Below the pieces are notes generated by a model, which saw only the letters and a list, made by a program, of their open reading frames with translations, made no database searches and was not told the origin of the DNA. Both the position numbers and the translations under genes were made by a program. A stretch of DNA of 64,000 bases from Marinomonas sp. UCMA 3892 (GTDB lineage Bacteria; Pseudomonadota; Gammaproteobacteria; Pseudomonadales; Marinomonadaceae), in NCBI RefSeq assembly GCF_012726345.1, contig NZ_PTXN01000009.1, positions 62,001 to 126,000 on the forward strand, written 5' to 3'. Every line of letters starts with the position of its first letter. Within the stretch, counting starts at the first letter, position 1. Positions 30,118 to 57,079 of the stretch are shown in pieces.

Positions 30118-30161
30118 TTAACATGTTAAATAAATTAAACTTAACATGTGTAGTATGTCAA
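30118..30161 (-). promoter_or_regulatory. hpaE promoter with two HpaR-type operators
   Basis: On the minus strand, -35 TTGACA (30161-30156), a 16-bp spacer and -10 TTTAAT (30139-30134) precede hpaE by about 70 bp. A full palindrome TTAACATGTTAA (30118-30129) lies just downstream of the -10. A partial copy (TTAACATGTGTA, 30141-30152) fills the spacer. This geometry suits repression by a MarR dimer at each site. Regulator identity (HpaR) is inferred. Confidence 0.65.
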
Positions 30162-30312
30162 GCCTACTTACTGAATTTGAAATGCAATTAAATAAAAAAA
30201 GAGACTGGTACAAATGGAAAATTCTTTTGCATTATTTGACTTTTAGTCCAGATGTGGAATTATCCCCACCAGTGCCCTATCAAATAATTAACAATAAACG
30301 GGAGCGCATAAT

Positions 30313-31074
30313 ATGCTGAATACACGCCTTTATGACACCTTGCCTTCTCTTATCAAAGGCATTGGTGAACATCACTTCTATGACCAAGTTGCCTACTCAA
30401 TCAAAGCGTTAGACCCAATCTCTAACATTAGAATTGTTAGTTATTCGAAGACCAATCACCCTGTTTTCTTAAGTGGAAACGAAATGTCAGAAATTGATGA
30501 GGTGTATTGCGAATCAGCGTACTTGCTTGATCCTGTCTATGACATGATCTGTGGCAATAGAGATCAAAAAGAACTCGTTACCTTAGACAGTCTCGTCAAT
30601 GATGATTTTCGCAATTCCGCTTACTACGATACATTTTACCAACGATTAGATTGGTGTAATGAAACCAACATAGTTATCGGTACAAGTGATGACACCAAAA
30701 TTTGCATCGTCTACTCAACCAAAGACAATGGCGCCTCTATTCAAGCAGTCAACCGTGAACTCATTCCGTGCATCAACTCAATCAAAGCCGCCATATTGAC
30801 CCATGAGCGCATTGGAAATGCATTACAAGCCAATCAAGCCAATCAAGCCATTAATCTAGAAAACATAAACAGCCGTAGCTATATGCTTGAATATCAACAC
30901 CTTACCAAGCGAGAAAAAGAAATCGTAAAGCTTATTCTGACCGGTTTGTCCTCTGCCGCTATCGCTGAAAAATGCTTTGTTTCGGAAGGAACCGTCAAGA
31001 ATCATCGCAAAAATATCTACCGCAAACTCAATATCAAATCCCAAGCGGAACTATTCAGAAAATTCATTCAATAA
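30313..31074 (+). CDS. LuxR-family transcriptional regulator (solo)
   Basis: A 253-residue regulator with a GerE/LuxR helix-turn-helix at residues about 193-250 (YQHLTKREKEIVKLILTGLSSAAIAEKCFVSEGTVKNHRKNIYRKLNIKSQAELF). The N-terminal 180 residues form an unassigned sensor domain without the usual homoserine-lactone Trp/Asp pattern that I can identify. Its architecture resembles the LuxR gene at 52516. It lies between the divergent hpaE operon and the hpaG operon and could respond to a pathway intermediate rather than a quorum signal. No luxI homologue is present in the window. Confidence 0.85.
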   Translation: MLNTRLYDTLPSLIKGIGEHHFYDQVAYSIKALDPISNIRIVSYSKTNHPVFLSGNEMSEIDEVYCESAYLLDPVYDMICGNRDQKELVTLDSLVNDDFRNSAYYDTFYQRLDWCNETNIVIGTSDDTKICIVYSTKDNGASIQAVNRELIPCINSIKAAILTHERIGNALQANQANQAINLENINSRSYMLEYQHLTKREKEIVKLILTGLSSAAIAEKCFVSEGTVKNHRKNIYRKLNIKSQAELFRKFIQ

Positions 31075-31086
31075 AACAGTCGTGTA

Positions 31087-31132
31087 TTGACAAGGAATGT
31101 TTTTTACGAAACTATAGTTAACATGTTAACTA
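31087..31132 (+). promoter_or_regulatory. hpaG promoter with 18-bp perfect HpaR-type palindrome
   Basis: A consensus -35 TTGACA (31087-31092) is followed by TATAGT (31113-31118, spacer 20). The perfect palindrome TAGTTAACATGTTAACTA occupies 31115-31132, overlapping the -10 and the start point. This is the longest and most symmetrical copy in the window. The TTG of the -35 box is also the first codon of a longer open frame, which is why that start is rejected for hpaG1. Confidence 0.65.
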
Positions 31133-31149
31133 CATTTGGTAAGAAGAAA

Positions 31150-31887
31150 ATGTTTCATTACAGACAAAAAGAATCAAATGAAGTGGTATCGAAAACTGCG
31201 AATGCCAGCTTTGAAATCAAGTTAGACGACACCATACTCCCGCCCACCTCTGGTAATGTGATTGGCGTCGCTTTGAACAACAAAGCCTTGGCGAAATCGT
31301 TAGAAAAAGCTTTTAACGAAAAGCCACACGTCCAACCGCCCAAAACCCCTGTATTACACATCAAAACCGATAATACACACATCGGCTATGGCAAGAATAT
31401 CAAGCTACCAAGCGATAAAGGCGCGGTTTTTGCCGGTCCATCCTTGGGTATCGTTATTGGTAAAAAAGCCACTCGTGTTGATGCCAGCAACGCCTTAGAT
31501 TTCGTGGCGGGCTTTACCGTTGTAAACGAAGTGAGCTTAGCGGAAACCTCCTTTTATCGCCCCGCTGTAAAAGCAAAATGCCGTGATACTTTTTGTCCGA
31601 TTGGCCCATGGACAGTCGACAAAAGCGCAGTAAGTACGCCAAATAAGTTAAGCATCAAGACATTCATTAATGATGCGTTAGTGCACGAAACCAATACCGA
31701 TCAGCTGATTTACTCAGTAGAAGAAATAATAAGCTACATCAGCAGTTTCATGACGCTAGAAGCTGGAGACATCATCATCGCAGGTACGCCGGAACGCACA
31801 GCCGATTTAGCCATTAACCCCGGAGACAGTGTCATGATCGATATCGAAGGCGTCGGCCGCCTAGTCAACCCAGTGGAACAAGAATAG
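31150..31887 (+). CDS. hpaG1: HpaG1: N-terminal-type subunit of OPET decarboxylase/HHDD isomerase
   Basis: The ATG at 31150 (MFHYRQKESNEVV) gives 245 residues. The frame is open to a TTG at 31087, but that covers the promoter and operator. It is an FAA-hydrolase-fold protein equivalent to the N-terminal half of E. coli HpaG, which decarboxylates 5-oxo-pent-3-ene-1,2,5-tricarboxylate. The core GNVIGVALNNKALAKSL and the FVAGFTVVNEVSLAETSFYRPAVKAKCRDTFCPIGPW block are visible. Where HpaG2 has the metal-site acids in YECELVVVIG, this protein has AGPSLGIVIG, so the ligands appear lost, as in an inactive or modified half. It needs HpaG2 as partner and is encoded 9 bp before it. Confidence 0.88.
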   Translation: MFHYRQKESNEVVSKTANASFEIKLDDTILPPTSGNVIGVALNNKALAKSLEKAFNEKPHVQPPKTPVLHIKTDNTHIGYGKNIKLPSDKGAVFAGPSLGIVIGKKATRVDASNALDFVAGFTVVNEVSLAETSFYRPAVKAKCRDTFCPIGPWTVDKSAVSTPNKLSIKTFINDALVHETNTDQLIYSVEEIISYISSFMTLEAGDIIIAGTPERTADLAINPGDSVMIDIEGVGRLVNPVEQE

Positions 31888-31896
31888 GAAGCAGTC

Positions 31897-32658
31897 ATGA
31901 AAAGCGCCCGTATACTTTTTAACAATGAAACACTCGCTGTCACAGTAAACGATCAAGACCAAGTTGTGACTCAACAAGGCAAGATTCTTGAAGAAGGTTC
32001 TTTCACTTGGTTACCACCCTGCGAAGGCAAAATATTTGTTTTAGCGATTAACTACGCTGACCACGCAGCCGAATTGTCTTTTAAAGCACCAGACGAGCCT
32101 TTGGTTTTTTTGAAGAACAAAAACTCTCTTATCGGTCACGATCAACAAACCTACCGTCCAGATAACGTGGATTACATGCACTATGAATGTGAATTGGTAG
32201 TCGTTATCGGCAAAGAAGCGAAAAACGTCTCAATAGAGGACGCGATGGACTATGTCGGTGGTTACACAGTAGGAAATGACTACGCCATCCGAGATTACCT
32301 AGAAAATTACTACCGACCTAATCTAAGAGTAAAAAGTCGCGATACTTGTACGCCAATTGGCCCTTATATTGTGGATGCCAAAGACATTAAAGATCCGCAC
32401 AATCTGGTGCTTCGCACTTATATAAATGGCGAATTGAAGCAAGAAGGCAACACCGAGGATTTAGTGTTTAACATCCCACATTTGATCGCTTACTTGAGCG
32501 AGATTATGACATTAACCCCAGGGGATATGATCTTTACCGGAACCCCAGAAGGTTTAGCCGATGTGAAACCTGGCGATGTGGTAACCACAGAAGTCGAAGG
32601 TGTGGGCGTTCTGAAAAACACCATTATTTCTGAATCTGAATACCTAAAAACAATTTAA
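31897..32658 (+). CDS. hpaG2: HpaG2: 2-hydroxyhepta-2,4-diene-1,7-dioate isomerase/OPET decarboxylase subunit
   Basis: A 253-residue FAA-hydrolase-family enzyme equal to the C-terminal half of E. coli HpaG. The divalent-metal ligands are intact: Glu-x-Glu in MHYECELVVVIG near residue 107 and Asp in GGYTVGNDYAIRDY near 128. SRDTCTPIGPYIV and the C-terminal MTLTPGDMIFTGTPEGLADVKPGD motif complete the fold. It acts after HpaF, decarboxylating and isomerising the linear tricarboxylate to 2-oxohept-3-ene-1,7-dioate. It follows hpaG1 by 9 bp and precedes hpaH by 18 bp. Confidence 0.93.
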   Translation: MKSARILFNNETLAVTVNDQDQVVTQQGKILEEGSFTWLPPCEGKIFVLAINYADHAAELSFKAPDEPLVFLKNKNSLIGHDQQTYRPDNVDYMHYECELVVVIGKEAKNVSIEDAMDYVGGYTVGNDYAIRDYLENYYRPNLRVKSRDTCTPIGPYIVDAKDIKDPHNLVLRTYINGELKQEGNTEDLVFNIPHLIAYLSEIMTLTPGDMIFTGTPEGLADVKPGDVVTTEVEGVGVLKNTIISESEYLKTI

Positions 32659-32676
32659 ATAATTAAGGGTGACGAC

Positions 32677-33480
32677 ATGCTTTCAAAAGACATTATTACA
32701 GCTTGCGCCAACAGGCTGAATCAGGCAGAAAAAGAGCGCGTTCAAATTCGTCAAATTTCATTAGATTACCCAGATATCACTTTTGATGATGCCTATGCTA
32801 TTCAACGAGAATGGGTACAAATGAAGCTCAATGAAGGCCGCAAAGTTATTGGTCATAAAATTGGTCTAACTTCGCGCGCAATGCAAATGAGTTCACAAAT
32901 TGATGAACCAGATTACGGCACACTGCTTGATGACATGCTGTATTACGATGGCTGCGAAATTGAAACAGACAAGTTCATTGTGCCACGCATTGAAGTGGAA
33001 TTAGCCTTCATTCTAAAGAAACCTCTGAAAGGCCCTAACTGCACCATCTTTGATGTTTATAACGCAACAGATTACGTCATTCCTGCGCTTGAACTTATTG
33101 ATGCTCGCAGTCAATCTATCGACCCAGAAAGCAAACGCCCACGCAAAGTCTTCGATACCATTGCTGATAACGCCGCCAATGCTGCAATTATTTTAGGTGG
33201 CCGCCCGATCAAAATAGATGAAATGGATTTACGTTGGGCATCCGCCATTATGCAGCGAAACGGCATTATTGAAGAAACTGGTGTTGCCGCTGGCGTACTC
33301 AATCACCCTGCCAATGGCGTTGCATGGTTAGCCAATAAATTAGCGCCATTTGATGTTGAACTTGAACCTGGTCAGATCATTCTTGGTGGCTCTTTTACTC
33401 GCCCAATAGCAGCACGCAAAGGGGATACTTTCACCGTAGATTACGGTCCATTGGGTTCTGTATCTTGTCATTTTGCTTAG
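32677..33480 (+). CDS. hpaH: 2-oxo-hept-4-ene-1,7-dioate hydratase
   Basis: A 267-residue hydratase of the FAA/MhpD-like family adding water to the oxoheptenedioate to give 4-hydroxy-2-oxoheptanedioate. The magnesium-site acids are in [12 protein letters not shown] near residue 107 and [14 protein letters not shown] near 136. [31 protein letters not shown] near 61 is diagnostic for HpaH/HpcG. It lies in the tight operon hpaG1-G2-H-I with 18-bp and 9-bp gaps. Confidence 0.95.
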
Positions 33481-33489
33481 GAGATAGAC

Positions 33490-34296
33490 ATGGCCGCTCC
33501 TAAAAATACATTTAAAACTGCGCTACAAAACCGCCAACCTCAGATTGGTCTGTGGCTTGGTTTAGCAAATAACTACACCGCTGAACTGATTGCGAGCGCA
33601 GGATTTGATTGGTTATTAATCGACGGAGAACACGCACCAAATACTTTGCAGACCATGGTTGGGCAACTGCAAGCAATCGCGCCTTTTTCTAGCCACCCAA
33701 TTGTTCGTCCAGCCTGGGCTGATCATGTCGCGCTTAAGCAAATACTTGATCTTGGTGTGCAAACCGTCCTAGCACCTATGGTAGATAATGCTGAGCAAGC
33801 GCTGGAGATAGTCAAAGCAACACGCTATCCACCAGCTGGTATTCGTGGTGTCGGCAGTGCACTAGCACGTGCCTCGCAGTTCAATAGAACACCTGAATAC
33901 TTGACGACTGCGAACGATGAAATTTGTGTACTGGTTCAAATTGAGTCTCTTCGTGCTGTTGAAGAACTGGATAACATTCTTGCTGTAGATGGGGTTGACG
34001 GTGTCTTTATTGGACCTGCGGACCTTAGCGCATCACTTGGCTATATTGGTCAACCTAACCACCCTGAAGTGGTTAAAGTGATAGAGCAAAGTATTGCAAA
34101 AATTGTTGCAGCTGGAAAAGCACCAGGCATTTTGATGGCAGACAAAGTACAAGCGAAACATTACTTGTCACTCGGCGCATTATTTGTCGCAGTAGGCAGT
34201 GATACTGGCTTACTAATGAACAGTACTAAAGTTTTGGTGAATGAGTTCAAGCCTGAACAACATTCCCATGAAGAAACAACAGCGTCTGTCTATTGA
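33490..34296 (+). CDS. hpaI: 4-hydroxy-2-oxoheptanedioate aldolase
   Basis: A 268-residue class II pyruvate aldolase splitting 4-hydroxy-2-oxoheptanedioate to pyruvate and succinate semialdehyde. Catalytic and metal residues are visible: His in [11 protein letters not shown] near residue 45, Arg in [10 protein letters not shown] near 70, Glu in [14 protein letters not shown] near 149, and Asp in [14 protein letters not shown] near 175. It is the last gene of the operon and is followed by a strong terminator. The succinate semialdehyde can be oxidised by the gabD-like enzyme at 57251, whose promoter region has the same HpaR-type palindrome. Confidence 0.95.
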
Positions 34297-34512: not shown

Positions 34513-35415
34513 ATGAAAAAAGAATGGATACCCAACATAACCATTGGACAAGACTATGATGTAGCCTATAGAGATGCGACGATCCATTTTGATGTACTCG
34601 GAAAAATGGCGGATTTCTTTGGCCGTGATATGCCAATGCATTTACATGCAGAATATTGCCAAATACATCTTATTTTATCTGGTAATACTTTGTTTAATAT
34701 TGATCAAAATGTCTATGAAACACAAAGCTGTGCCGCTTTCTATACACCACCAGCCACGCCACATGCGTTTCTAACCGAGCCGACTGCACCTGGCTATGTC
34801 ATTACTATTCACAACACCCACTTACAGAAAATCATGGCTGAGCTTAATGCCTACAGTCACCACAATTCGCTATTAATGCCATTTCACATTGATCAACAAA
34901 AAGACACCAAACCTGAGCAACAACACTGGGAACAGCTATTAAACCTTTTTGAGATGCTTAAGCTAGAATGGAGTCGGTCTTCCCTGTATCAGCACGACAG
35001 CATTGAAGCCATTGTGAAGTTAATTTTGATCAGCATGCTCAGACTTTCCGGTACTGAGCAGCCACAAAAACAACATAACCAATCCGAAATTCTCTGTTTT
35101 AGGGAATTTAGCACCCTGCTGGAACATCACTTTTTAACCGAAAAAAACATTCAATTTTATTGCGAAGCGCTTCAAATCAATGAAAGTAGACTGAATTATT
35201 TGTGCAATAAAATCACCAAGCTTAGCCCCAAAAAAATGATAAATGGCCGAATTCTTCTCGAAGCCAAACGCTTATTGTCCCATACCAATAAAAACCTAAC
35301 TGAAATCGCTTATACCTTGGGCTATATCGACCCTTCATATTTCTCACGATTCTTCTTAAAAAAGACAGGAATGAGTCCTTCAGATTTTCGCAAACACTAC
35401 CGTAACGAGGAATAA
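34513..35415 (+). CDS. hpaA: AraC-family regulator HpaA of 4-hydroxyphenylacetate catabolism
   Basis: A 300-residue AraC regulator. The N-terminal cupin sensor (about residues 10-130) begins with IPNITIGQDYDVAYRDATIHFDVLGKMADFFGRDMPMHLHAEYCQIHLI, the pattern seen in HpaA, which activates the HPA hydroxylase genes on sensing HPA. The two AraC helix-turn-helices lie at about 205-295 (NIQFYCEALQINESRLNYLCNKIT and NLTEIAYTLGYIDPSYFSRFFLKKTGMSPSDFRKHY). It is transcribed alone, after the hpaI terminator. The presumed targets at 42.5 kb are 8 kb away. Confidence 0.88.
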   Translation: MKKEWIPNITIGQDYDVAYRDATIHFDVLGKMADFFGRDMPMHLHAEYCQIHLILSGNTLFNIDQNVYETQSCAAFYTPPATPHAFLTEPTAPGYVITIHNTHLQKIMAELNAYSHHNSLLMPFHIDQQKDTKPEQQHWEQLLNLFEMLKLEWSRSSLYQHDSIEAIVKLILISMLRLSGTEQPQKQHNQSEILCFREFSTLLEHHFLTEKNIQFYCEALQINESRLNYLCNKITKLSPKKMINGRILLEAKRLLSHTNKNLTEIAYTLGYIDPSYFSRFFLKKTGMSPSDFRKHYRNEE

Positions 35416-35478: not shown

Positions 35479-35898
35479 ATGCTTAACATTATCAACAAAA
35501 AAGAGCTAACCACACGGGCCGCGCTGGGTTTATGTAGCACAGCAATCGACCATGCAAAACAGCTTGGCATCAACATCTGCATCACGGTCGTTACTACTTC
35601 AGGCCAGCAGCTTGCCAGTGCCTCAATGAATAATGCCCCCCTTATTTCCCAAGGTGTCGCCTATAAAAAAGCCCTTACCGCGGCTTCTTTCGGCATTCCC
35701 ACTAAAGAATGGCAAAGCAAACTGGCTGACAGAAACAACACCTTATTTGCTTTACAAAGTGAGCCAAACTTTACCTTTTTGGGTGGCGGTTTACCGATTG
35801 AAATGGAAGGGGTTGTGGTGGGTGCTATTGGTATTTCTGGTGGTAGCGAACAACAAGATATTGATTGCGCAACCAAAGCCATCAACAGCCTGTCATAA
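35479..35898 (+). CDS. GlcG/HbpS-family protein
   Basis: A 139-residue protein of the GlcG/HbpS (haem-degrading, PduO C-terminal-like) family. Typical features are TRAALGLCSTAIDHAKQLGINICITVVTTSGQQLASASMNNAPLISQGVAYKKALTAASFGIPT and the C-terminal LGGGLPIEMEGVVVGAIGISGGSEQQDIDCATKAI. These proteins are often encoded in aromatic, glycolate or nitroaromatic catabolic operons; their exact biochemical role is unsettled. It is followed after 26 bp by an MFS gene and preceded by an HpaR-type operator, so it is placed in the hpa regulon. Confidence 0.85.
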   Translation: MLNIINKKELTTRAALGLCSTAIDHAKQLGINICITVVTTSGQQLASASMNNAPLISQGVAYKKALTAASFGIPTKEWQSKLADRNNTLFALQSEPNFTFLGGGLPIEMEGVVVGAIGISGGSEQQDIDCATKAINSLS

Positions 35899-35924
35899 AA
35901 ACAGCCAATGAAAAAGGAGCCTCC

Positions 35925-37112
35925 ATGTCTTCCGCTTTAAGCAAACTCACCATTCCACTGCTTGGCTTTCTGGTCGCATTTGGGCCGCTTTCTATCGATA
36001 TGTATTTGCCAAGCCTACCCACCATAGCCAAGAGTTTACATAGCAGCGATCAGCTTATACAAACAACGATTACGGTATTTTTACTCGGCATGGCAATCGG
36101 TATGCTCATCTTTGGGCCTTTATCCGATATGATGGGCAGAAAGCGCTTGCTGCTGATCGGCATCGGCTTTTATTTTATAAGCAGTATTGGCTGTGCTCTC
36201 GCGTCAACGGGTGAGAGTCTGATTCTATTTAGATTCTTACAATCTCTAGGGGGAGCAGCCGCGGCGGTGCTTGCTAGAGCCTTAGTGCGTGATTTGTATG
36301 AACTCAAAAGAGCCGCCAATATTTTGTCACACATGCATGTCATCTCCATGATGGTCATGCTGATATCGCCAATCTTGGGTGCCTATATTGTCAGCTATTT
36401 TGAGTGGCGCTGGATCTTCTACTTTCTCGCTTTATTCTCTACGGTTGCCTTTATTGGCAGTGCCTTATTATTACCTAACACAGAAATATCCAGACCGACC
36501 GTTAAGCCCAGTTTCAGCCATTACGCTAAAAACTATATCGACTGCCTAGGTGCGCCTTTACTGGTTCAATACGTACTGGCCAATGCGTTTTCATTTGCCG
36601 GTATGTTTGCCTTTATTGCAACATCAGCCTTTGTCTATATCGAATACTTTCAGCTTTCAGAAACCTATTATGCGCTTCTATTTTCCGCCAATATTTTCGC
36701 CATTATTATCACTACCTTGCTCAACTCTTATTTGAGTAAACGCTATAACGTTGGTCTCGCATTAAATGTTGCGATTGGCATCTCTTTTACGGCGACCTTA
36801 TTGATTTGGGGAATGGTTGGTTTGGGCAGCACATCCATGGTTCTATTTGTGATCACCACCATGATGTATATCAGCGTAACAGGAGCCATTGGCGCCAACA
36901 GCTTAGCGACATTATTTGAGCAATTACCAGAAAAAGCGGGGACGGTTTCGGGGTTATTGGTGGCCACTCAATTTGCGGTGGGAGGTTTCATCAGTTATCT
37001 AGCCAGCTTAATATTTGATGGCTCACCAAACAGTCTACTCATCATGATGGCCTGCTGCGGCACGCTTTGCACAATTTTCTACCTGAGTACTCGGATAAAT
37101 AAAGTCATCTAG
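35925..37112 (+). CDS. MFS transporter, Bcr/CflA drug-efflux type
   Basis: The ATG at 35925 (MSSALSKLTIPLLGF) follows an AAGGAG site, giving 395 residues. The open frame upstream overlaps the previous gene and is rejected. Twelve membrane segments are expected. The FGPLSIDMYLPSLPTIAKSL start and LIFGPLSDMMGRKRLLLIG loop 2-3 motif are typical of the Bcr/CflA subfamily. Such transporters export drugs or small aromatics. With an HpaR-type operator before the GlcG-MFS pair, it may export a toxic catechol or phenolic intermediate (inference). It is similar in type to the MFS gene at 44782. Confidence 0.88.
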   Translation: MSSALSKLTIPLLGFLVAFGPLSIDMYLPSLPTIAKSLHSSDQLIQTTITVFLLGMAIGMLIFGPLSDMMGRKRLLLIGIGFYFISSIGCALASTGESLILFRFLQSLGGAAAAVLARALVRDLYELKRAANILSHMHVISMMVMLISPILGAYIVSYFEWRWIFYFLALFSTVAFIGSALLLPNTEISRPTVKPSFSHYAKNYIDCLGAPLLVQYVLANAFSFAGMFAFIATSAFVYIEYFQLSETYYALLFSANIFAIIITTLLNSYLSKRYNVGLALNVAIGISFTATLLIWGMVGLGSTSMVLFVITTMMYISVTGAIGANSLATLFEQLPEKAGTVSGLLVATQFAVGGFISYLASLIFDGSPNSLLIMMACCGTLCTIFYLSTRINKVI

Positions 37113-43709: not shown

Positions 43710-43752
43710 AAACACTTTAAAAAATAAATACATAAGAATAAGAGAGAATATT

Positions 43753-44667
43753 ATGAGCTTCGACCCTAAAGAATTCCGTCGCTGCCTAGGAAATTTTGCC
43801 ACAGGCGTGACCGTCATTACCGCCAAGTCCTCTGATGGTACACAGGTGGGCGTAACCGCTAACAGCTTTAACTCCGTGTCTCTTGATCCACCACTGATAC
43901 TTTGGAGCATTGTTAAAACATCCAGCAGTTATGCTGTATTTGAAAATTCGGACCATTTCGCTGTCAATATTTTAGCGGCAGATCAAATTGATCTATCCAA
44001 TAACTTTGCCAAACCAAGTGACGATAAATTTGCCAATGTAGAAACACAGCCCGGTATTGGCGGTGCTCCACTGCTTCAAAATACGGCGGCCAATTTCCAG
44101 TGTGAAAAATACCAAGTTGTCGATGGGGGTGATCACTGGATCATGATTGGTAAAGTGGTTGCATTTGAAAGCCTAGGCCGCGCGCCATTACTTTATGTTC
44201 AGGGCAGCTATGCTGGCGCGATTCCTTTCACTGGTGCCAAAACACCCGCGAAAAACGTTGCCTCGGATAAAACATTAGCGCGTTTACACGACAGTGCTAT
44301 ATATCTAATCCATAAGGTTTTGCAAAAGGTTCAAGAGAACTATCTGCCAAAGCAGTCAGCAACTGGATTAAGCACAAGCGAAGCTCGAATGTTGCTTGTG
44401 TTGAGTGATACTACAGGAATCACCGTCGATGATTTAAGCAATTTGGTTACAATTCCGGCAGTGGATGTGGTTGATGGGGTTGAAAGTTTAAAAGGCTTTG
44501 GCTTGATTAACAGTGATCTCGCACTGACTGAAAAAGGTCACGATATAGCCGAAAGATTATGGGCTATTTCAGATAAGCAGCAAGCTGATATTTTTGCGGA
44601 CTTTAAAGAGGATGAATTAGCCAATTTTAAAAAGCAGCTGCAACAATTACTGAAACAACTCAGTTAA
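43753..44667 (+). CDS. 4-hydroxyphenylacetate 3-hydroxylase reductase component with MarR-like domain (C1 type)
   Basis: A 304-residue two-domain protein. Residues 1 to about 160 are an NADH:flavin reductase (FRRCLGNFATGVTVITAKS, GVTANSFNSVSLDPPLILWSI, NFQCEKYQVVDGGDHWIMIGKV). Residues about 180-304 are a MarR-like winged-helix domain (LSTSEARMLLVLSDTTGITVDDLSNLVTIPAVDVVDGVESLKGFGLI). This architecture is that of A. baumannii C1-HPAH, in which the MarR-like domain binds HPA and relieves autoinhibition of flavin reduction. It supplies reduced flavin to the preceding oxygenase. A strong terminator follows. Confidence 0.88.
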   Translation: MSFDPKEFRRCLGNFATGVTVITAKSSDGTQVGVTANSFNSVSLDPPLILWSIVKTSSSYAVFENSDHFAVNILAADQIDLSNNFAKPSDDKFANVETQPGIGGAPLLQNTAANFQCEKYQVVDGGDHWIMIGKVVAFESLGRAPLLYVQGSYAGAIPFTGAKTPAKNVASDKTLARLHDSAIYLIHKVLQKVQENYLPKQSATGLSTSEARMLLVLSDTTGITVDDLSNLVTIPAVDVVDGVESLKGFGLINSDLALTEKGHDIAERLWAISDKQQADIFADFKEDELANFKKQLQQLLKQLS

Positions 44668-44781: not shown

Positions 44782-45936
44782 ATGATCCCCTTTCCGTATT
44801 TCATTTTGATGGCGATGTGCAGTCCTATCGCCCTGAATGCCATTTTGCCGGCTTTACCGGATATCGCTAAACAACTAGGCATTGACTCATCAACGGTACA
44901 ATTAAACTATTCTCTTTATTTAGCCGCGCTTGCCTTAGGCCAGTTTTCTGTAGGAGCCGTCATTGCCAGACTCGGAAACCGCTCTACCATTATATTAGGC
45001 ATCTCTTTCTTTGTGCTTGGTGGATTAATCGCGTTGGCAACAGAGCAGTTATTTTTTATGCTGCTGGGTCGGGTACTGCAAGGTATTGGTGGCGCCTTTA
45101 CCCTTTCAATGTCCAGAGCATTATTGGTCGCCAGTTCTGGCGGAAAGCGCGCGTCACAGCAAATGGGTTATCTGGTCATGGCCATCGCCTTATCACAAGG
45201 CATTGCTCCCTTAATTGGTGGCTCATTGAATACCCATATAGGTTGGCAAGCTATCTTTGCTCTTTCAGCCATTCAAGGGGCTATTTTACTGTTTTTTAGT
45301 CTAAAACTGATTCAACCAGCGGCGCAAAAACCACCTAAGTTACCATTAAAAATGTTGCTTAGTCATTATATGAGCCTCATTCGTCTGTCTTCTTTTAGAC
45401 ATTACGCCATGGCAAATACACTGATCGCTCTGTGTTTTTATCTGTTTATTAGTGCCTCTCCCTATCTAACCAAAGACCTGAGCGACAACAGGCTCGCTTA
45501 TGGTTATTGGTTCATCTTGGTGTCTGGCGCCTTTATGCTGGGTGGATACCTAAGTACATTATTTAATAAGCGATTGGCGTTAGATAAATCCATCCAACTT
45601 GGAAATTACTTATGCATTCTTGGCGCCACGGCTTTATTGATACTGCAACTTAGCATGCCGATGAGTTTTGCCTCACTCTTTTTACCCATGTCTGTCATTA
45701 CGCTGGGGCGCGGTATCAGCCAAGCAAGCTATCAAAGCGCTGCCATAGCAACGGCCGATAAATTATCAGGCATGGCCTCAGGATTACTCGGTTTTCTCCA
45801 ATTAAGTTTTGGGGCAATTTTTTCTCAAGTTGTTCCCTTATTGATCGACCTGCATCCTCATGCCATTGGCTTTGCCATCTTGGGCTGTACCCTTTTAGCG
45901 ACCATGGTCCATAGAAATATACGAACAATGAAATAA
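44782..45936 (+). CDS. MFS transporter, Bcr/CflA type
   Basis: A 384-residue MFS protein with twelve predicted membrane segments. LNAILPALPDIAKQLGIDSSTVQLNYSLYLAALALGQFSVG is the first helix pair and GRVLQGIGGAFTLSMSRALLV the motif near residue 97. It belongs to the same efflux subfamily as the gene at 35925, and both share the exact operator TTAACAAGTTAA. It is upstream of hpaR on the same strand (79-bp gap). A role in exporting catecholic or phenolic compounds under HpaR control is inferred. A short leader (5 codons) before TM1 supports the ATG at 44782. Confidence 0.87.
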   Translation: MIPFPYFILMAMCSPIALNAILPALPDIAKQLGIDSSTVQLNYSLYLAALALGQFSVGAVIARLGNRSTIILGISFFVLGGLIALATEQLFFMLLGRVLQGIGGAFTLSMSRALLVASSGGKRASQQMGYLVMAIALSQGIAPLIGGSLNTHIGWQAIFALSAIQGAILLFFSLKLIQPAAQKPPKLPLKMLLSHYMSLIRLSSFRHYAMANTLIALCFYLFISASPYLTKDLSDNRLAYGYWFILVSGAFMLGGYLSTLFNKRLALDKSIQLGNYLCILGATALLILQLSMPMSFASLFLPMSVITLGRGISQASYQSAAIATADKLSGMASGLLGFLQLSFGAIFSQVVPLLIDLHPHAIGFAILGCTLLATMVHRNIRTMK

Positions 45937-46014
45937 CACACCTGTGCGCTAGCATTTATTTATGAAACGTATTTGATACTATCAAAATCATATTTTAGGA
46001 ATTATCGAGATTAC

Positions 46015-46437
46015 ATGAAAAGATTAGAAGACTCCCTAACACTGCAATTGTTAAGAGCACGTGAATCATCCATGACTTTTTTTAGACCTGTACTGCAAAA
46101 GGCAGGTTTTACCGAACAACAATGGCGAGTCTTACGGGTTTTAAATGATCATGAAGAACTAGAGGCTAAACAACTGGCTCATCTATGCTGCATTCTTAGC
46201 CCAAGTTTGACGCGAATTATTACGCGCTTTGAAGAAGATGGCTTTATCATTCGCAAAAAATCACCAACGGATCAGCGTATCTCTTTGCTTTCTTTAACCC
46301 CTATGGCGATGAAAATTGTTAAAGAGTTCCGTCCAGAAGTGGATGCCGCTTACCAACGCATCATCGAAAAGCTAGGGGAAGACAAACTAAAAGAACTTAG
46401 CCGACTGTTGAGCGATATTATTGCTCTAGAAAGCTAA
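46015..46437 (+). CDS. hpaR: MarR-family repressor HpaR of homoprotocatechuate degradation
   Basis: The ATG at 46015 (MKRLEDSLTLQLLRARESSMTFFRPVLQ) gives 140 residues; the 14 codons upstream are not conserved. The sequence follows HpaR closely: the 'LxxxRE' N-terminal helix, FTEQQWRVLRVLNDHEELEAKQLAHLCCILSPSLTRIITRFEEDGFIIRKKSPTDQRISLLSLT for the winged helix with its wing, and a C-terminal dimer helix. HpaR represses hpa operons and is released by homoprotocatechuate-pathway ligands. Seven copies of a MarR-length palindrome around this locus are its presumed operators. The gene is convergent with the broken AraC gene. Confidence 0.9.
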   Translation: MKRLEDSLTLQLLRARESSMTFFRPVLQKAGFTEQQWRVLRVLNDHEELEAKQLAHLCCILSPSLTRIITRFEEDGFIIRKKSPTDQRISLLSLTPMAMKIVKEFRPEVDAAYQRIIEKLGEDKLKELSRLLSDIIALES

Positions 46438-47493: not shown

Positions 47494-47507
47494 GTAAACA
47501 TGTTAAC
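47494..47507. promoter_or_regulatory. HpaR-type operator GTAAACATGTTAAC between the AraC and GMC genes
   Basis: It differs by one base from the perfect 14-mer GTTAACATGTTAAC. It lies 83 bp before the AraC start and 143 bp before the GMC oxidoreductase start. A TTGACA hexamer (47512-47517) follows on the plus strand. Confidence 0.5.
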
Positions 47508-47649: not shown

Positions 47650-49239
47650 ATGAAGTCCATTGATTTCATCGTCGTTGGCGGTGGCTCATCAGGTTGCACC
47701 GTAACACACAGGCTTGTAAAAGCAGGTTTTCAAGTAGTTTTGCTGGAAGATGGTCCAAAAGACGATTCTATATTCGTCCAAATGCCTGCCACTTTCATTC
47801 GTGTTATTGGGTCAAAGCGATCCGTGATATATGAAAGCGAACCCCAACCCGACGCTGGCGGCCGAAAAACCTATGTGCTACAAGGCCGCACACTCGGTGG
47901 AGGTAGCTCAATCAATGCCATGCTTTACATCCGTGGCCAGAAAGAAGATTACGATGAATGGGAGCGCAACGGCTGCGATGGCTGGGGTTGGGAAAATGTC
48001 CTAGCAAGCTTTAAACGCTCAGAAAACCATATGCGTCTAAGCGAGCCATTTCACGGCACGAATGGCCCTTTGCGTGTAAGCGACACTCGTTTTAGACACC
48101 CCCTCAGCCAAGCTTTTTTAAAAGCCGCACAACAAACGGGCATCCCTTATAACGATGATTTTAACGGTGAAAAACAAGATGGAATTGGCTTCTATCACAC
48201 CACGACTTTTGATGGTCGTCGTGGTAGTACCGCTGCAACGTACCTCAACGAGGTAGAGAACGCGCCAAACCTAGAAATCCGCACAGGATGTTACGTTAAC
48301 AAGATCATCTTTGATGCTAATAACAACGCGACAGGTATTGAGTTGCGTAATGAGTCCGGCAAAATAGAAATACTTTCGGTGAAGAAAGAAGTCATCCTAG
48401 CCGCTGGCGCGTTATCCACACCCAAAATATTAATGCTGTCGGGGGTTGGTCCAAAAGAGCAGTTATCTAAACACGGCATATCAACGCTTTACGACTCTCC
48501 AGAAGTGGGCGAAAACTATCAGGACCACCTAGAAGTCAGTATCTATGGTCGAGCGAAACATCCAATTAGCTTACTTGGCAGCGATAAAGGCCTCAAAGCA
48601 CTGTCCTATGGTTTCCAGTGGACTTGTTTTAAAACAGGTTTATTGACTTCTAACGTTGTTGAGTCTGGTGGCTTTGTGGATACTAGCAACTGTGGCCGTC
48701 CTGATATTCAATTCCATGTACTGCCTACTTTGGTTGGTGACGTAGACCGCGAGCCCATTGAAGGTCACGGCATTTCCATCAACCCTTGTTTCTTACGTCC
48801 TAAATCCCGAGGTTTCGCCCGACTACGCAGTGCAAACCCAACAGATTCAATGATTTTCGAAAGTGGTGCGTTATCACATCGTGACGACGTTGATACGCTT
48901 ATCCGTGGTGTTAAATTGGCCCGCAAGATTATACGGGCACCGGCCATGGCAGAACTGATCAGCGAAGAACTTCGTCCCTCCGCCAAAGAAGATATTTCAG
49001 ATGCTGAAATCGAAGCCCACATTCGCAGCCATGCTAAAACCGTCTACCACCCTGTTGGCACTTGCCGCATGGGCTCTGATGAACAAGCTGTTGTCGACAC
49101 TAAGCTCCGTGTTAATGGTGTCAAAGGAGTACGTATCTGCGATGCCTCTATTATGCCAACTATTATCTCGGGGAATACCAATGCTCCGACGATTATGATC
49201 GCAGAACGTTGCGCTGAATTTATCCTCAACGAAGAATAA
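47650..49239 (+). CDS. GMC-family oxidoreductase (choline/alcohol dehydrogenase-like)
   Basis: A 529-residue GMC flavoprotein oxidising an alcohol. The ADP-binding motif DFIVVGGGSSGCTVTHRLVKAGFQVVLLEDGP is at residues 5-36, the GMC signature QGRTLGGGSSINAMLYIRGQKEDYDEWE at 78-106, and the catalytic His467 in VYHPVGTCRMG with SGNTNAPTIMIAERCA near 507. It resembles alcohol/choline dehydrogenases with no special substrate determinant visible. An HpaR-type palindrome upstream ties it to the aromatic regulon, so an arylalkyl alcohol such as tyrosol (4-hydroxyphenylethanol) is a reasonable hypothesis. A terminator follows the stop. Confidence 0.9.
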   Translation: MKSIDFIVVGGGSSGCTVTHRLVKAGFQVVLLEDGPKDDSIFVQMPATFIRVIGSKRSVIYESEPQPDAGGRKTYVLQGRTLGGGSSINAMLYIRGQKEDYDEWERNGCDGWGWENVLASFKRSENHMRLSEPFHGTNGPLRVSDTRFRHPLSQAFLKAAQQTGIPYNDDFNGEKQDGIGFYHTTTFDGRRGSTAATYLNEVENAPNLEIRTGCYVNKIIFDANNNATGIELRNESGKIEILSVKKEVILAAGALSTPKILMLSGVGPKEQLSKHGISTLYDSPEVGENYQDHLEVSIYGRAKHPISLLGSDKGLKALSYGFQWTCFKTGLLTSNVVESGGFVDTSNCGRPDIQFHVLPTLVGDVDREPIEGHGISINPCFLRPKSRGFARLRSANPTDSMIFESGALSHRDDVDTLIRGVKLARKIIRAPAMAELISEELRPSAKEDISDAEIEAHIRSHAKTVYHPVGTCRMGSDEQAVVDTKLRVNGVKGVRICDASIMPTIISGNTNAPTIMIAERCAEFILNEE

Positions 49240-49318: not shown

Positions 49319-50326
49319 TTATAAGTTGTTTGCCAACAAACGGTAACTGTCTAGACGATCGGCTTGACTATGGGTAACCGTTACTAAAGAGATTTCATCA
49401 ACGTTGAATGACCTTGCAAGGTCATTCATTTCAACCCAACATTGTTCTGGTGTACCAATGGTATAGCTGGCTTCAATTCGATCAAACAAGGCTTGATGAG
49501 AGACAGGCATATCGCGATATCTATCACGAACTTGAGCTGGTGTTAAAAAGTCTTCCCGCTGACCTATTTGAGTGGCAAATTTACGATACACCGCCGTTCC
49601 CGCTCTGAGCTTGGCTTCCTCTCCTGTTTCTGCACAAATACAAGCAATAGCCAACATCCTTTGTAATGGACGTTCATGCCCAGCCTGTTGCCACGTTTTC
49701 TGATGCGCGTCAAAAATACGCGGATGACAATTTTCAGAATCAATAAATCGAGCCAAAGCCAAATGATAGCCCAGCTGTCCCGCCAACTCTGCACTGCCAC
49801 CACTGGAACCAAGCATCCATAAATCGGGCACATCAACGACTTCTGGCATCACATGTATCGCGCCAAAAGGATGGTCTTCCTCAAAAGAGCCATGAATAAA
49901 ACTTTCCAGCAATGCCGCTTGTTCTGCATAAAACTGACCACTCGACGCTTTATTTGGAAAGGCCAAAGCGGCGGATGTCATCGCCGAACCACCAGGTGCA
50001 CGCCCAACCCCAAGGTCGATACGCCCGGGGAAAAGTGAGGCCAACATGGCAAAGCACTCAGCCACTTTTAACGGACTATAATTAGATAACATCACGCCGC
50101 CACTGCCGACTTTGATGCGTTTAGTAATACTGGCCAAATGAGCCACTAAGATCTCAGGACAAGGATTAGCAAAATGCACGCTATCATGATGTTCCGCAAC
50201 CCAATAACGATGGTAATTCCATTCATCACAATACTTTGCTAACTCCACGGTTAATGAAGGAGCCGCTTTTTTATTATGGGAGCCATGTACTGGTGTTTGG
50301 TCCACAACGGACAATTTTATCTTCAT
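49319..50326 (-). CDS. LLM-class flavin-dependent oxidoreductase (luciferase-like monooxygenase)
   Basis: A 335-residue bacterial-luciferase-like protein of the YhbW/'alternative alpha-beta' group. Signature stretches are LSVVDQTPVHGSHNKKAA near the N-terminus, YHRYWVAEHHDSVHFANPCPEILVAHLASITKRIKVGSGGVMLSNYSPLKVAECFAMLASLFPGRIDLGVGRAPGG near 40-112, and LWMLGSSGGSAELAGQLG near 168. The group uses FMN, and most members lack defined substrates. The gene is alone on its strand. An HpaR-type palindrome lies 28 bp upstream of its start, suggesting a link to the aromatic pathway. Confidence 0.87.
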   Translation of the reverse strand: MKIKLSVVDQTPVHGSHNKKAAPSLTVELAKYCDEWNYHRYWVAEHHDSVHFANPCPEILVAHLASITKRIKVGSGGVMLSNYSPLKVAECFAMLASLFPGRIDLGVGRAPGGSAMTSAALAFPNKASSGQFYAEQAALLESFIHGSFEEDHPFGAIHVMPEVVDVPDLWMLGSSGGSAELAGQLGYHLALARFIDSENCHPRIFDAHQKTWQQAGHERPLQRMLAIACICAETGEEAKLRAGTAVYRKFATQIGQREDFLTPAQVRDRYRDMPVSHQALFDRIEASYTIGTPEQCWVEMNDLARSFNVDEISLVTVTHSQADRLDSYRLLANNL

Positions 50327-50353: not shown

Positions 50354-50365
50354 TTAACATGTTAA
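50354..50365. promoter_or_regulatory. HpaR-type operator TTAACATGTTAA between LLM and FAD-monooxygenase genes
   Basis: A perfect 12-bp palindrome. It lies 28 bp upstream of the LLM start (minus strand) and 129 bp upstream of the FAD monooxygenase start, so the LLM gene is its more likely target. Confidence 0.6.
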
Positions 50366-50493: not shown

Positions 50494-52425
50494 ATGATGC
50501 AATATCACCTCAATGGTTTTAAGCCCGGTAACTATCAAGTTCCAGATTCCGTACGACTACCTGCTGCTCCACCAGCTATTGTTGACTTGCCCAAAAAAGT
50601 CGATGTGTTAATTGTGGGCTGTGGCCCTGCAGGACTAGCCTTAGCAAGGCAACTGTCGGAGTTTTCTGATATTACAACTTGCATCGTTGAACTTAAGTCC
50701 GGCCCCTTATTATTTGGTCAGGCAGATGGTATATCTTGTCGCACAATGGAAATCATGGAAGCATTTAATTGTAGCGAAATGCTTGTTAAGGAAACCTACC
50801 AGCTTAATAGAAATGCTTTCTGGGAGCCGGATGATAAGCAACCAGAGAACATAAAACGTACTCACAAAGTTCCTGACGCAAGAATTGGGCTCTCCGAATT
50901 TTCCCATGGGGTTGTAAATCAAGCTCGTCTGCAAGATTTATTACTTGAAGGCATGGAAAATTCAATCACGAAACTTGTTCCCCATTACAATCGTCGGCTA
51001 CTTGAGCTGCATGTTGACCCTAATCTTACTCAAGATTTGAATGCCCACCCTATTACGGCAAAATTCGCACGCCACGACATGTCACAATCAAGCAATGTCG
51101 AGACTATCCAAGCGCGATATGTCGTAGGTTGTGATGGTGCTAGAAGTGCAGTCCGTAAAAATCTATCAATAATGCTAGAAGGTGACTCAGCCAACAAAGC
51201 ATGGGGAGTCATGGATGTTTTATTAGTGACAGACTTTCCCGATATCAGAGTGAAGTGCTTTATCCAATCAAAAGAAAACGGCGCCGTAATGCTCGTTCCC
51301 CGTGAAGGTGGTTATCTAGTCAGACTATATGTAGAACTCGGCCTGCTGGAGAAAGATCAAAGAGCATCTCATCTTGACCTTACCATTGAAGATATTATTG
51401 AAAAAGCACAACTCATTATGACGCCTTATCAAATGGATGTTAAAGAGGTTGCTTGGTGGTCTATCTATGAGGTTGGTCAACGAGTAGCAGATCGCTTTGA
51501 TGATACACCTGCTGATAATTCAGAAGGTTTGATTCCTCGTGCATTTGTTGCAGGTGACGCCTGCCATACACACAGTCCAAAAGGTGGATGGGGACTAAAT
51601 ACCTCACTACCAGATACTTTCAACTTGGGGTGGAAGCTAGCAGCTGTTTTATTGGGCAAAAGTCAGCCTAAATTGCTACAAACATACTCTTCGGAAAGAC
51701 GAAAAGTGGCGCAACAACTCATTAATGCAGATAAACAAATGTCCAGTCTGGTGGCAACTCGACCTACTGCTAAGTCCGGTGCTATACAAGCCAAGACCAA
51801 TACGGCTGATATTGAAGAATTCATTGCCAGACAAAACGGTTTTATTGCCGGAACCTCCATTCAATATGACGCTTCATTTATCTGTACAGGGCACACACAT
51901 CAAGACTTGGCGACCGGATTTATCATAGGCCAACGCTTCCACTCAGCAACCGCCATTCGAGTTGCAGATGGTAGACGACAACATTTAGGACATCTGAATA
52001 AAGCAGATGGTCGCTGGCGTATTTTCATTTTTGGAAATCAACAAAATCCAATGGATACCACTTCAGATTCGTACAAGCTTATAGATTTTCTAGATCGCTC
52101 TGAATCTTCTCCTGTCCGAAAATACACCTCAAGCAGTAGCGACATTGACTCTGTCATTGATATCTATGCTGTCTTTCAGCAACAAGATTTATCCATAGAA
52201 AATATGCCTAATTTCTTATGGCCAGCAAAAGGAAAATACGGGCTAAGAGATTACGAAAAGGTGTTCCATACAGAAGAAGGTAACGATATATTTGAGCAAC
52301 GTGGTATCAATCGCTCAAACGGCTGTATGGTTGTAGTACGTCCAGATCAGCATATTGCTAATATATTACCTCTCAATGCTTTTGATGAATTGAGTGATTT
52401 TTTTGATGGTTTCATGATTTCCTAA
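50494..52425 (+). CDS. FAD-dependent aromatic monooxygenase (phenol 2-monooxygenase-like)
   Basis: A 643-residue class A flavoprotein hydroxylase with the three-domain layout of phenol 2-monooxygenase and 3-hydroxybenzoate 4-hydroxylase. The Rossmann motif VDVLIVGCGPAGLALARQLSEF is at 36-57, the DG motif ARYVVGCDGARSAVRKNL near 207, and the second FAD motif AFVAGDACHTHSPKGGWGLNTSLPDTFNLGWKLAAVLLGK near 350-389. A C-terminal thioredoxin-like domain (about 450-643) follows. In most relatives the loop reads GQGMN; GWGLN here may change substrate choice. Neighbours suggest a hydroxyphenyl substrate, perhaps a side-branch of HPA or tyramine metabolism. A LuxR gene follows in the same direction. 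Confidence 0.88.
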   Translation: MMQYHLNGFKPGNYQVPDSVRLPAAPPAIVDLPKKVDVLIVGCGPAGLALARQLSEFSDITTCIVELKSGPLLFGQADGISCRTMEIMEAFNCSEMLVKETYQLNRNAFWEPDDKQPENIKRTHKVPDARIGLSEFSHGVVNQARLQDLLLEGMENSITKLVPHYNRRLLELHVDPNLTQDLNAHPITAKFARHDMSQSSNVETIQARYVVGCDGARSAVRKNLSIMLEGDSANKAWGVMDVLLVTDFPDIRVKCFIQSKENGAVMLVPREGGYLVRLYVELGLLEKDQRASHLDLTIEDIIEKAQLIMTPYQMDVKEVAWWSIYEVGQRVADRFDDTPADNSEGLIPRAFVAGDACHTHSPKGGWGLNTSLPDTFNLGWKLAAVLLGKSQPKLLQTYSSERRKVAQQLINADKQMSSLVATRPTAKSGAIQAKTNTADIEEFIARQNGFIAGTSIQYDASFICTGHTHQDLATGFIIGQRFHSATAIRVADGRRQHLGHLNKADGRWRIFIFGNQQNPMDTTSDSYKLIDFLDRSESSPVRKYTSSSSDIDSVIDIYAVFQQQDLSIENMPNFLWPAKGKYGLRDYEKVFHTEEGNDIFEQRGINRSNGCMVVVRPDQHIANILPLNAFDELSDFFDGFMIS

Positions 52426-56075: not shown

Positions 56076-56216
56076 AAAACTCTCTTTCTGAAAAAGAAAT
56101 AAGGTTGAACAATATCACTTTGCCTGTAGCGAAACCACTGGATACCAAAACACATTAAAAACGCCTTTTACACTGATAGAAAGTACCCTGCGCTTCAATT
56201 CGGGTTAAACCCAATT

Positions 56217-56633
56217 TTAGCTTTTATTGTCTTCTTGTTGCTTCCTACTCTTAACTGAGGATCTAATTCCTAGCCAGTAAATTGAAAAAACTGACATAAG
56301 CAACAAGACAGCAGCAATCGGATGATTAATGAAATTCGTGATATCCCCATGAAGAATAGTCGCAGTTTGGCCTAAGGCAAGCTCAAACCGTGGACCAAGG
56401 AATCAAGCTGGCGCCCCCCACCGCGGAGTTCGCCGATTTACAATAACATTCCACCCAGTGTCTTCTTCCACTTGAGTCGCAATCGCACGGGCCAAGGTGT
56501 CGGTGCTACCGTCAGCACCAAAGCCAACTTCTAATGTGATTGAGCCATTCGGCTGCCAATCAGCTAAAGCGAATGCTGGCATCGTCATTACAGCAGCACA
56601 CGTCGCCACTTTCAGGATATTGGTGAGCTTCAT
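56217..56633 (-). pseudogene. Collapsed TTT operon: tctC head joined to tctA tail by internal deletion
   Basis: From the ATG at 56633 the frame gives an intact TctC signal peptide and first lobe (ADWQPNGSITLEVGFGADGSTDTLARAIATQVEEDTGWNVIV) of about 65 residues, then diverges and stops at 56405. Directly after, from about 56402 to the stop at 56217, the strand encodes LGPRFELALGQTATILHG, DITNFINHPIAAVLLLMSVF and a charged tail, the typical C-terminus of a TctA permease. So most of tctC, all of tctB and about 85% of tctA are missing, and a GC-rich stretch (56402-56436) marks the joint. The signal peptide could still be made but no functional transporter could. Confidence 0.8.
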
Positions 56634-56705
56634 CTTTCTTACCTCTTTTAGGTTTTTATATGGATAGAAACAAGGCTTAACTGGTTTTGCTTAACATGCA
56701 CTCGG

Positions 56706-56825
56706 TCATATTTCAGGCAGGGCTTCAGAGCATCTTGCTAGTCCGTAGATATCCATGAGCCGACGCCCTATATTGAGATCATTACAAACATTCACATTGG
56801 CGCTCGTTCGAATTTCGTTATTCAC
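56706..56825 (-). CDS. Possible small ORF (39 aa) or gene remnant with strong Shine-Dalgarno
   Basis: A GTG at 56825 is preceded by GGAGG with a 6-nt spacing, the best ribosome binding site in this gap, and opens 39 codons (VNNEIRTSANVN..., ending RCSEALPEI). No family is recognised. It lies between the second copy of the 45-bp repeat and the collapsed tctC, and so would be the first gene of that ancestral transcription unit. It could be the truncated front of a lost enzyme or a leader peptide. Confidence 0.35.
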   Translation of the reverse strand: MNNEIRTSANVNVCNDLNIGRRLMDIYGLARCSEALPEI

Positions 56826-56898
56826 TTAGAACCTCCAAGGGATTATTTTTATAATGAAATATAAGGAAGAACCTAAAGAGTAAAACTCTGCTTACTCG

Positions 56899-56943
56899 CT
56901 GAGAAATGAGTCGTACTCATAAGCTCTGTGCGGGAAATTCATA
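56899..56943. repeat. 45-bp element, copy 2 (upstream of the collapsed TTT unit)
   Basis: It matches 54905-54949 at 38 of 45 positions. Within this copy a clear dyad ATGAGT-CGT-ACTCAT is visible (56906-56920), weaker in copy 1. It lies in the gap 56634-57250 between divergent units. That gap also holds the small ORF and an HpaR-type palindrome. Confidence 0.6.
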
Positions 56944-57065
56944 AGCAACCAACAGCGGCATGAGTTAACCGCGACAAGCTTGAGCCAGACTAGAAGGAAC
57001 GAATAAAATGGAAGACATAACTTAAAGGCGTATTCAAAGAACGATCTTTTTATCAAATAAAATTA

Positions 57066-57079
57066 GTTAACATGTTAAC
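57066..57079. promoter_or_regulatory. HpaR-type operator GTTAACATGTTAAC upstream of the gabD-like gene
   Basis: A perfect 14-bp palindrome preceded by TTA as in the hpaE copy, 171 bp before the aldehyde dehydrogenase start. The distance allows for a 5' leader of about 150 nt. Confidence 0.6.

Follow-up and report, generated by a model that had tools for sequence, protein, structure and literature searches.

What reads the palindrome that recurs through the 4-hydroxyphenylacetate (4-HPA) region of Marinomonas sp. UCMA 3892, and how many genes does it tie together? The 64,000-nucleotide stretch analysed here (contig NZ_PTXN01000009.1, positions 62,001 to 126,000; called the window below, and all positions are given in it) contains this palindrome upstream of roughly ten genes or operons that serve 4-HPA breakdown. 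An earlier note on this DNA had proposed that seven copies form a regulon of HpaR, a MarR-family protein. The best explanation, and on comparative grounds a very probable one, is that the palindrome is the HpaR operator, that HpaR is encoded in the middle of the set, and that all targets are induced together.

The palindrome in the window and in the genome

The seven positions given in the earlier note, with a partial copy beside the first, were all confirmed (Table 1), and the best copy, box 2, is indeed an 18-bp perfect palindrome. That all seven sites are intergenic holds if translation of hpaG1 begins with ATG 31150, whereas the open reading frame (ORF) list places its start at a TTG further upstream. 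The TTAA-N4-TTAA palindrome is exact in six of the seven sites, box 5 (47495) being TAAA-CATG-TTAA and thus one base off, and four of the seven (boxes 2, 3, 4 and 6) sit 16-27 bp from a start codon.

The 5,033,590-base genome has six exact copies of TTAACAWGTTAA, all of them inside the window between 30118 and 57078, while the reversed control has one forward match in the whole genome. With one mismatch allowed the palindrome matches 34 times in each direction, compared with 43 forward and 36 reverse matches for the reversed control, and because this is no excess genome-wide, the signal resides in the full palindrome. One-mismatch sites were dropped as regulon members genome-wide since their count equals that of the control; box 5 was kept despite its mismatch because it is conserved in relatives. 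The statement that the window has no further copies is true if exact ones are meant; copies with one mismatch are present at 1846 and 8454. The earlier note had also reasoned that a motif common away from aromatic genes would speak against the proposal, and the scan of this organism's own genome did not find the motif to be common there. The 18-mer TAGTTAACATGTTAACTA, which was derived from the same sites it was scanned for, matches with up to three mismatches at six places genome-wide, all in the cluster and box 5 included; since its reversed control matches at four places, the informative feature is that the matches cluster, not how many there are. Box 4 is absent from these matches as its flanks differ, although its core is exact. 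The pattern TTAAYATRTTAA occurs 4 times in the 64 kb window against a mean of 0.02 in shuffles. In genomes without HpaR, four single sites in about 104 Mb give an expectation of 0.001 sites per 27 kb, where four CATG-type sites are seen here. A chance origin of the cluster was rejected on the genome counts, the shuffles and this HpaR-less background.

HpaR as the probable reader of the palindrome

Forty-eight genomes of the genus were compared, labelled from G000 (this genome) onward; 21 have an intact HpaR over the model cut-off and 27 do not. At least two TTAACATGTTAA sites are present in all 21 HpaR genomes (range 2-6) and in none of the 27 without intact HpaR, 23 of which have no site and 4 a single one. 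The Fisher p for this co-occurrence is 4e-14, a value that overstates the independent evidence because the genomes are related. G023, which has a broken hpaR fragment with a stop, has no TTAACATGTTAA site. This remnant stands alone (locus L110, G023:C10:203000-222999), the other window genes that were searched for giving no match in the surrounding 20 kb.

The hpaR gene is genetically linked to the hpa genes in the window, and its product is the sole protein over the cut-off among 12 matches to the HpaR model in the genome. Residues C59, I60, L61, P63, S64, T66, R71 and E73 are invariant in seven HpaR sequences, that of E. coli among them, and we take the segment C59-E73 to be the one that recognises DNA. 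The best-scoring solved HpaR is PDB 7el2 (130.7 bits), which, like PDB 7el3, presumably comes from Acinetobacter baumannii. The MarR protein of PDB 5aip, which we take to be NadR of Neisseria meningitidis, scores 106.1 bits against the window HpaR. HpaR is the closest MarR neighbour of NadR according to the accessible part of the NadR paper (PMC2791445), but NadR, unlike HpaR, controls an adhesin and not a catabolic regulon.

As expected of an HpaR operator, boxes stand upstream of hpaE and hpaG (boxes 1 and 2) and of hpaR (box 4). In one strain of E. coli, TTAACATATTAA lies 31 bp before hpaG and presumably corresponds to operator OPR1 (Galan et al. 2003). The footprints of Yersinia pseudotuberculosis HpaR contain TTAA-N4-TTAA, as reported in the available part of that work (PMC7180172). 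A survey of other genera covered the best 80 HpaR loci among the matches listed, 6 of them from Marinomonas. In these loci TTAAYATRTTAA has 78 occurrences, spread over 52 of the 80, against 0, 0, 0, 1 and 0 for five rearranged control patterns, and 50 of the 78 sites lie near hpaG or hpaR matches. With Marinomonas left out, 47 of 74 loci contain 72 sites, and hpaG or hpaR matches are close to 47 of these sites. Two Acinetobacter loci (L132, 10431-13407, and L135, 559-3529) have an HpaR-type box, TTAATATATTAA, between a major facilitator superfamily (MFS) gene and a GMC oxidoreductase gene, an arrangement that recalls Marinomonas, where MFS and GMC genes are also members of the regulon.

The window encodes other regulators that might read the palindrome. 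The reader could be the LuxR-type protein encoded at 30313 or its relative at 52516, with HpaR incidental. The gene at 30313 lies between two boxes, one of which is common to it, and in G001 a box variant stands 74 bp before another LuxR homologue. A LuxR-type reader is very improbable because 8 of the 21 motif-bearing genomes (G003, G019, G029, G032, G037, G038, G042 and G045) have no close orthologue of the first LuxR, which is found in 13 of the 21 HpaR genomes, with a partial one in G043. The second LuxR was found at high identity just in G025 and G033 among the fetched stretches, which were picked around HpaR and the sites and are not random samples; the LysR gene of the window has the same distribution. 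The box also matches HpaR footprints, which counts against a LuxR-type reader. Another candidate is the AraC-type activator HpaA, which would read the palindrome and activate all targets. It has a close orthologue in 20 of the 21 motif-bearing HpaR genomes, and this nearly equal tracking is a point against HpaR as reader. However, AraC proteins usually bind direct repeats, and G038, in which HpaA and a close orthologue of the first LuxR are both missing, still has HpaR together with two hpaE/hpaG boxes and a box at the MobA-like hydroxylase gene. Moreover, Y. pseudotuberculosis reportedly has no HpaA, yet its HpaR footprints show the box pattern, as far as the available part of the source goes (PMC7180172). 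We give HpaA as little credence as the LuxR-type proteins, both binders being made unlikely by their absences from motif-bearing genomes.

The co-occurrence in 48 genomes, the absence of rivals where the motif stays, the fit to the TTAA-N4-TTAA footprints and the boxes at hpaG and hpaR in other genera thus make HpaR, as the earlier note had proposed, the binder of the palindrome with high probability. That it represses at each box is somewhat less sure.

Breadth of the proposed regulon among relatives

The earlier note had claimed a target set wider than the classical one, and the conservation of the boxes, including those at genes away from the cluster, argues for it. The per-gene counts allowed no more than one core mismatch in a box and required it to lie within 350 bp of the gene start in the fetched stretches; under a looser target rule a site could lie as far as 350 bp ahead of a BLAST match or up to 80 bp inside it. 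The 20 related HpaR genomes have 75 TTAACATGTTAA sites, 73 of them in fetched stretches and the other two in G047 (read separately) and G045, and 67 of the 73 exact sites read have a target by the looser rule, targets found in relatives counted.

All 17 relatives whose fetched stretches contain hpaE have its box, and a box is near 16 of 19 hpaG1 annotations; under the looser rule, 19 relatives have an exact box at hpaG1. The core of box 4 is also found in four relatives, immediately ahead of hpaR in three (G001, G025 and G033) and ahead of the MFS gene in G039, while CATG/CATA-type boxes immediately precede hpaR in G003, G019, G029, G037, G042 and G045; autoregulation of hpaR through box 4 is possible. 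The GMC box is an identical 18-mer in 5 of 5 relatives that have the GMC gene in the fetched stretches. The gene for the luciferase-like monooxygenase (LLM) is present in 14 of the 48 genomes, all 14 HpaR-bearing, and has its box in 11 of 11 cases in the fetched stretches and in 12 of 14 genome-wide, the window included. The box at the MobA-like hydroxylase gene is found in 5 of 5 relatives and also in G047. For succinate-semialdehyde dehydrogenase (SSADH) the best match per genome was used, in 30 of the 46 genomes that had a match at the limit applied, and a box was sought within 400 bp. Eleven of the 30 genes have a box; these are all from HpaR genomes and share 89-100% identity with the window SSADH, whereas the 19 without one (7 in HpaR genomes and 12 not) are 62-90% identical and at least six bases off the 18-mer.

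Genes that keep the box outside the cluster are, as far as genome comparison goes, the most telling for a wide regulon. The hydroxylase gene in G038, 0.85 Mb from hpaR, and the LLM gene in G003, 0.3 Mb from the cluster, retain it, and on separate contigs of draft genomes it is kept at the hydroxylase (G002, G047) and at SSADH (G042). In this last copy (L201) the SSADH match has one internal TGA.

HpaR might instead read just the boxes at the hpa, MFS and hpaR genes, those at GMC, LLM, hydroxylase and SSADH being bystanders kept by physical linkage or promoter duplication. Boxes 6 and 7 do share about 70 bp of similar flank, and G001, G002, G039, G043, G044 and G047 have a single LLM/SSADH site where this genome has two. 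However, linkage does not fit the boxes kept at a distance and on other contigs, and SSADH-like genes at 19 other loci have no box, while the GMC box is identical in all five relatives and Acinetobacter has a box between MFS and GMC genes. We consider this explanation unlikely, if less so than a LuxR or HpaA reader, and judged by these comparisons the wide regulon of HpaR is a real signal. The earlier note had called the linked genes unexpected, but SSADH and the hydroxylase make metabolic sense and are hardly unexpected.

Relatives have extra targets as well, namely, a class II aldolase (G003, G025, G032, G037), a LysR gene and a ketopantoate-reductase-like gene. The class II aldolase family gene (PRK07044) lies behind an HpaR box at L085 (509-3042), L071 (4858-5628), L094 (3401-4171) and L090 (5050-5820). 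In G025 it is near a gene for tyramine oxidase subunit B and is a possible candidate for a pathway step.

Probable duplication and possible loss of operators in this genome

The flanks of boxes 6 and 7 are alike and each resembles the single LLM/SSADH spacer of G001, so the two are probably duplicates. The simplest reading is that an insert carrying the hydroxylase, the second LuxR gene, a tyrosine-decarboxylase-like gene and the LysR gene (50326-57242) split and duplicated one operator. An operator may also have been lost. The divergent spacer between tctC and the gene for the C2 oxygenase of the two-component 4-HPA hydroxylase contains a near-exact box variant in G001, G025, G033 and G039; in G014 the box before the C2 gene is exact, and G002 lacks a box at this place. 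About 100 bp of this spacer, box included, are missing here (42249-42509), and because of this loss the entry 4-HPA hydroxylase may have escaped HpaR in this genome.

Several observations weigh against HpaR as a common regulator or against the breadth of its regulon. If the insert duplicated one LLM/SSADH operator, the seven sites cannot count as seven separate events, and this genome has no box at the two-component 4-HPA hydroxylase. In the relatives, no target within 350 bp could be assigned to 6 of the 73 sites, one of which is inside an ORF, and the LLM gene has no box in G015 and G045. The GlcG box is present in 5 of 18 relatives, and of 22 hpaR copies, with the G023 remnant counted, 10 are preceded by a box. 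Among the best 80 HpaR loci, 14 of the 78 TTAAYATRTTAA sites are near no listed gene and 28 loci lack exact TTAAYATRTTAA, including 21 of 37 from Pseudomonas (one of the 37 is Stutzerimonas) and 1 of 6 from Marinomonas. Finally, HpaE has been proposed to be able to stand in for SSADH, according to the accessible part of a recent paper (PMC12718150), which would make a box at SSADH useful but not essential.

The overlap of the boxes with -10/-35 elements, which the earlier note had described at hpaE and hpaG, is weaker than stated there. When all seven sites were scanned, promoter-like matches overlapped four boxes (1, 3, 5 and 6) and there was none overlapping the box at hpaG, while the match at box 1 points to the LuxR-type gene and not to hpaE. 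The counts in six stretches, 7, 1, 3, 1, 0 and 1, were close to those in shuffles, 3.5, 1.6, 1.4, 0.8, 1.0 and 1.0. The half-site TTAACA is itself like TTGACA in five of six positions.

Genes of the region

Table 1. Proposed HpaR boxes and genes of the 4-HPA region, in window positions
Feature	Positions	Strand	Remarks
Box 1, TTAACATGTTAA	30118..30129		55 bp before hpaE ATG; common to divergent LuxR-type gene
Partial second copy	30141..30152		2 core mismatches; weak
Box 2, 18-bp perfect palindrome	31118..31129		20 bp before likely hpaG1 ATG (31150)
Box 3, TTAACAAGTTAA	35449..35460		18 bp before GlcG/HbpS-like gene
Box 4, TTAACAAGTTAA	44754..44765		16 bp before second Bcr-type MFS gene, itself before hpaR
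Box 5, TAAACATGTTAA, one mismatch	47495..47506		between FeaR-like gene and GMC oxidoreductase
Box 6	50354..50365		between LLM gene (-) and MobA-like hydroxylase (+)
Box 7	57067..57078		163 bp before SSADH gene
hpaD, homoprotocatechuate 2,3-dioxygenase	24291..25220	-	end of hpaE run; TIGR02298 454.6 bits, cut-off 315.95; PF02900
dctPQM, TRAP transporter	25242..28116	-	between hpaF and hpaD; PF03480, PF04290, PF06808
hpaF, 5-carboxymethyl-2-hydroxymuconate (CHM) isomerase	28168..28590	-	PF02962
hpaE, CHM semialdehyde (CHMS) dehydrogenase	28599..30062	-	TIGR02299 704.3 bits, cut-off 638.35
LuxR-type regulator 1	30313..31074	+	GerE domain
hpaG1, hpaG2, hpaH, hpaI	31150..34296	+	TIGR02305, TIGR02303, TIGR02312, TIGR02311, all over cut-offs
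hpaA-like AraC activator	34513..35415	+	TIGR02297 258.4 bits, slightly under cut-off 274.65
GlcG/HbpS-like gene and Bcr/CflA MFS gene 1	35479..37112	+	overlapping frames; PF03928; TIGR00710 273.2 bits, cut-off 200.9
Two-component 4-HPA hydroxylase, C2 oxygenase and C1 reductase	42510..44667	+	NF045920, NF045919 over cut-offs; PDB 2jbr 617.2 bits
Bcr-type MFS gene 2	44782..45936	+	TIGR00710 143.2 bits, below cut-off 200.9
hpaR, MarR-family repressor	45973..46437	+	ATG probably 46015; TIGR02337 164.6 bits, cut-off 121.2
GMC oxidoreductase	47650..49239	+	
LLM flavoprotein, MsnO8 family	49319..50326	-	TIGR03558 296.1 bits, cut-off 166.95
MobA-like FAD hydroxylase	50494..52425	+	PDB 2dkh, 672.2 bits over residues 2-641
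SSADH, GabD-type	57242..58693	+	TIGR01780 726.7 bits, cut-off 646.35

The gene spacing suggests that dctPQM is probably in one operon with hpaE. The best solved relative of the hydroxylase at 50494, for which we presume the name MobA to be the right one, is 3-hydroxybenzoate hydroxylase. SSADH scores 791.4 against the GabD equivalog model NF008415 and so falls below its cut-off of 828. The FeaR-like AraC regulator (46461-47411, minus strand) is interrupted by one in-frame stop, and its frame is open in the five relatives checked (G001, G016, G025, G043, G044). The C1 reductase (43753-44667, plus strand) has a weak C-terminal match of the MarR type (residues 187-303, TIGR04472, E 0.00013, below cut-off). 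LuxR-type regulators are found in or behind HpaR-box units at 30313-31074 and 52516-53268 and in locus L065 at 10262; Pfam recognises in them just the C-terminal GerE region and weak HTH overlaps.

Relation to known HpaR systems

The Marinomonas system has the protein family and the TTAA-N4-TTAA operator in common with HpaR of Yersinia and E. coli (PMC7180172), the E. coli box being just before hpaG. It differs in its targets. In the available part of the same source the direct targets described are the meta operon and hpaR, and T6SS4 in Yersinia is reached through a different sequence, whereas the Marinomonas box is additionally at MFS, GlcG, GMC, LLM, MobA-like hydroxylase and SSADH genes. 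The 4-HPA system of A. baumannii is similar in its HpaR, the best-scoring one of those solved, and in its two-component C1/C2 hydroxylase. The TH operon is described, in the accessible part of that paper, as the sole reported 4-HPA operon with an ssadh gene (PMC12718150); in Marinomonas, by contrast, the SSADH gene stands away from the hpa operons with a box to itself. The linkage of SSADH is not unique, as an Azotobacter plasmid has an annotated SSADH beside hpaI and hpaR. The 3,4-dihydroxyphenylacetate catabolon of Pseudomonas putida U likewise joins hpa genes with a peripheral route, but it has two HpaR-like proteins acting on the meta operon, and the part of the source available describes no shared operator on the peripheral genes (PMC7180172). 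No earlier description of a Marinomonas HpaR regulon was found in the searchable full texts, a search that RegPrecise and most subscription papers lie outside, and no paper in the full-text literature searched mentions both Marinomonas and HpaR. The repressor and operator are known, and the target set, notably SSADH, is new as far as the literature is searchable.

Proposed mechanism and its meaning

In relatives HpaR represses and is released from DNA by a ligand, as the accessible parts of three papers report (PMC7180172, PMC2791445, PMC12718150). By analogy, an HpaR dimer would bind directly at each box and block transcription, and an aromatic substrate or intermediate, such as 4-HPA, 3-hydroxyphenylacetate or 3,4-dihydroxyphenylacetate, would release it. 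The ring-cleavage units, whose extents we infer to be hpaG1G2HI and hpaEF-dctPQM-hpaD, would then be expressed together with the two Bcr-type MFS genes, hpaR, the MobA-like hydroxylase, the GMC oxidoreductase, the LLM flavoprotein, the GlcG-like protein and SSADH, and SSADH would remove the succinic semialdehyde made by HpaI. From pathway logic, the MobA-like enzyme is predicted to hydroxylate 3-hydroxyphenylacetate at the 4-position and so to yield the ring-cleavage substrate. The GMC enzyme is predicted to oxidise an arylethanol, and the LLM monooxygenase and, in relatives, the class II aldolase would also act in the pathway.

We somewhat favor the view that HpaR of Marinomonas is a pathway-wide regulator and that one box unites peripheral routes, an SSADH paralogue and newly implicated enzymes in a single on/off unit. 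Because the box is so specific, with six exact places in 5 Mb, it could serve as a pointer in that a gene behind it is predicted to take part in 4-HPA catabolism, and this gives testable functions to the LLM flavoprotein, the GMC oxidoreductase, the GlcG-like protein and the Bcr-type transporters. How the expression of GabD and Sad is synchronised with the 4-HPA operon was still described as ambiguous in 2025, in the accessible part of that paper (PMC12718150). If the proposal is true, the box at the SSADH paralogue would answer how the disposal of succinic semialdehyde is synchronised with 4-HPA breakdown, and an SSADH gene with its own HpaR box would be a direct and testable answer to this question for the genus.

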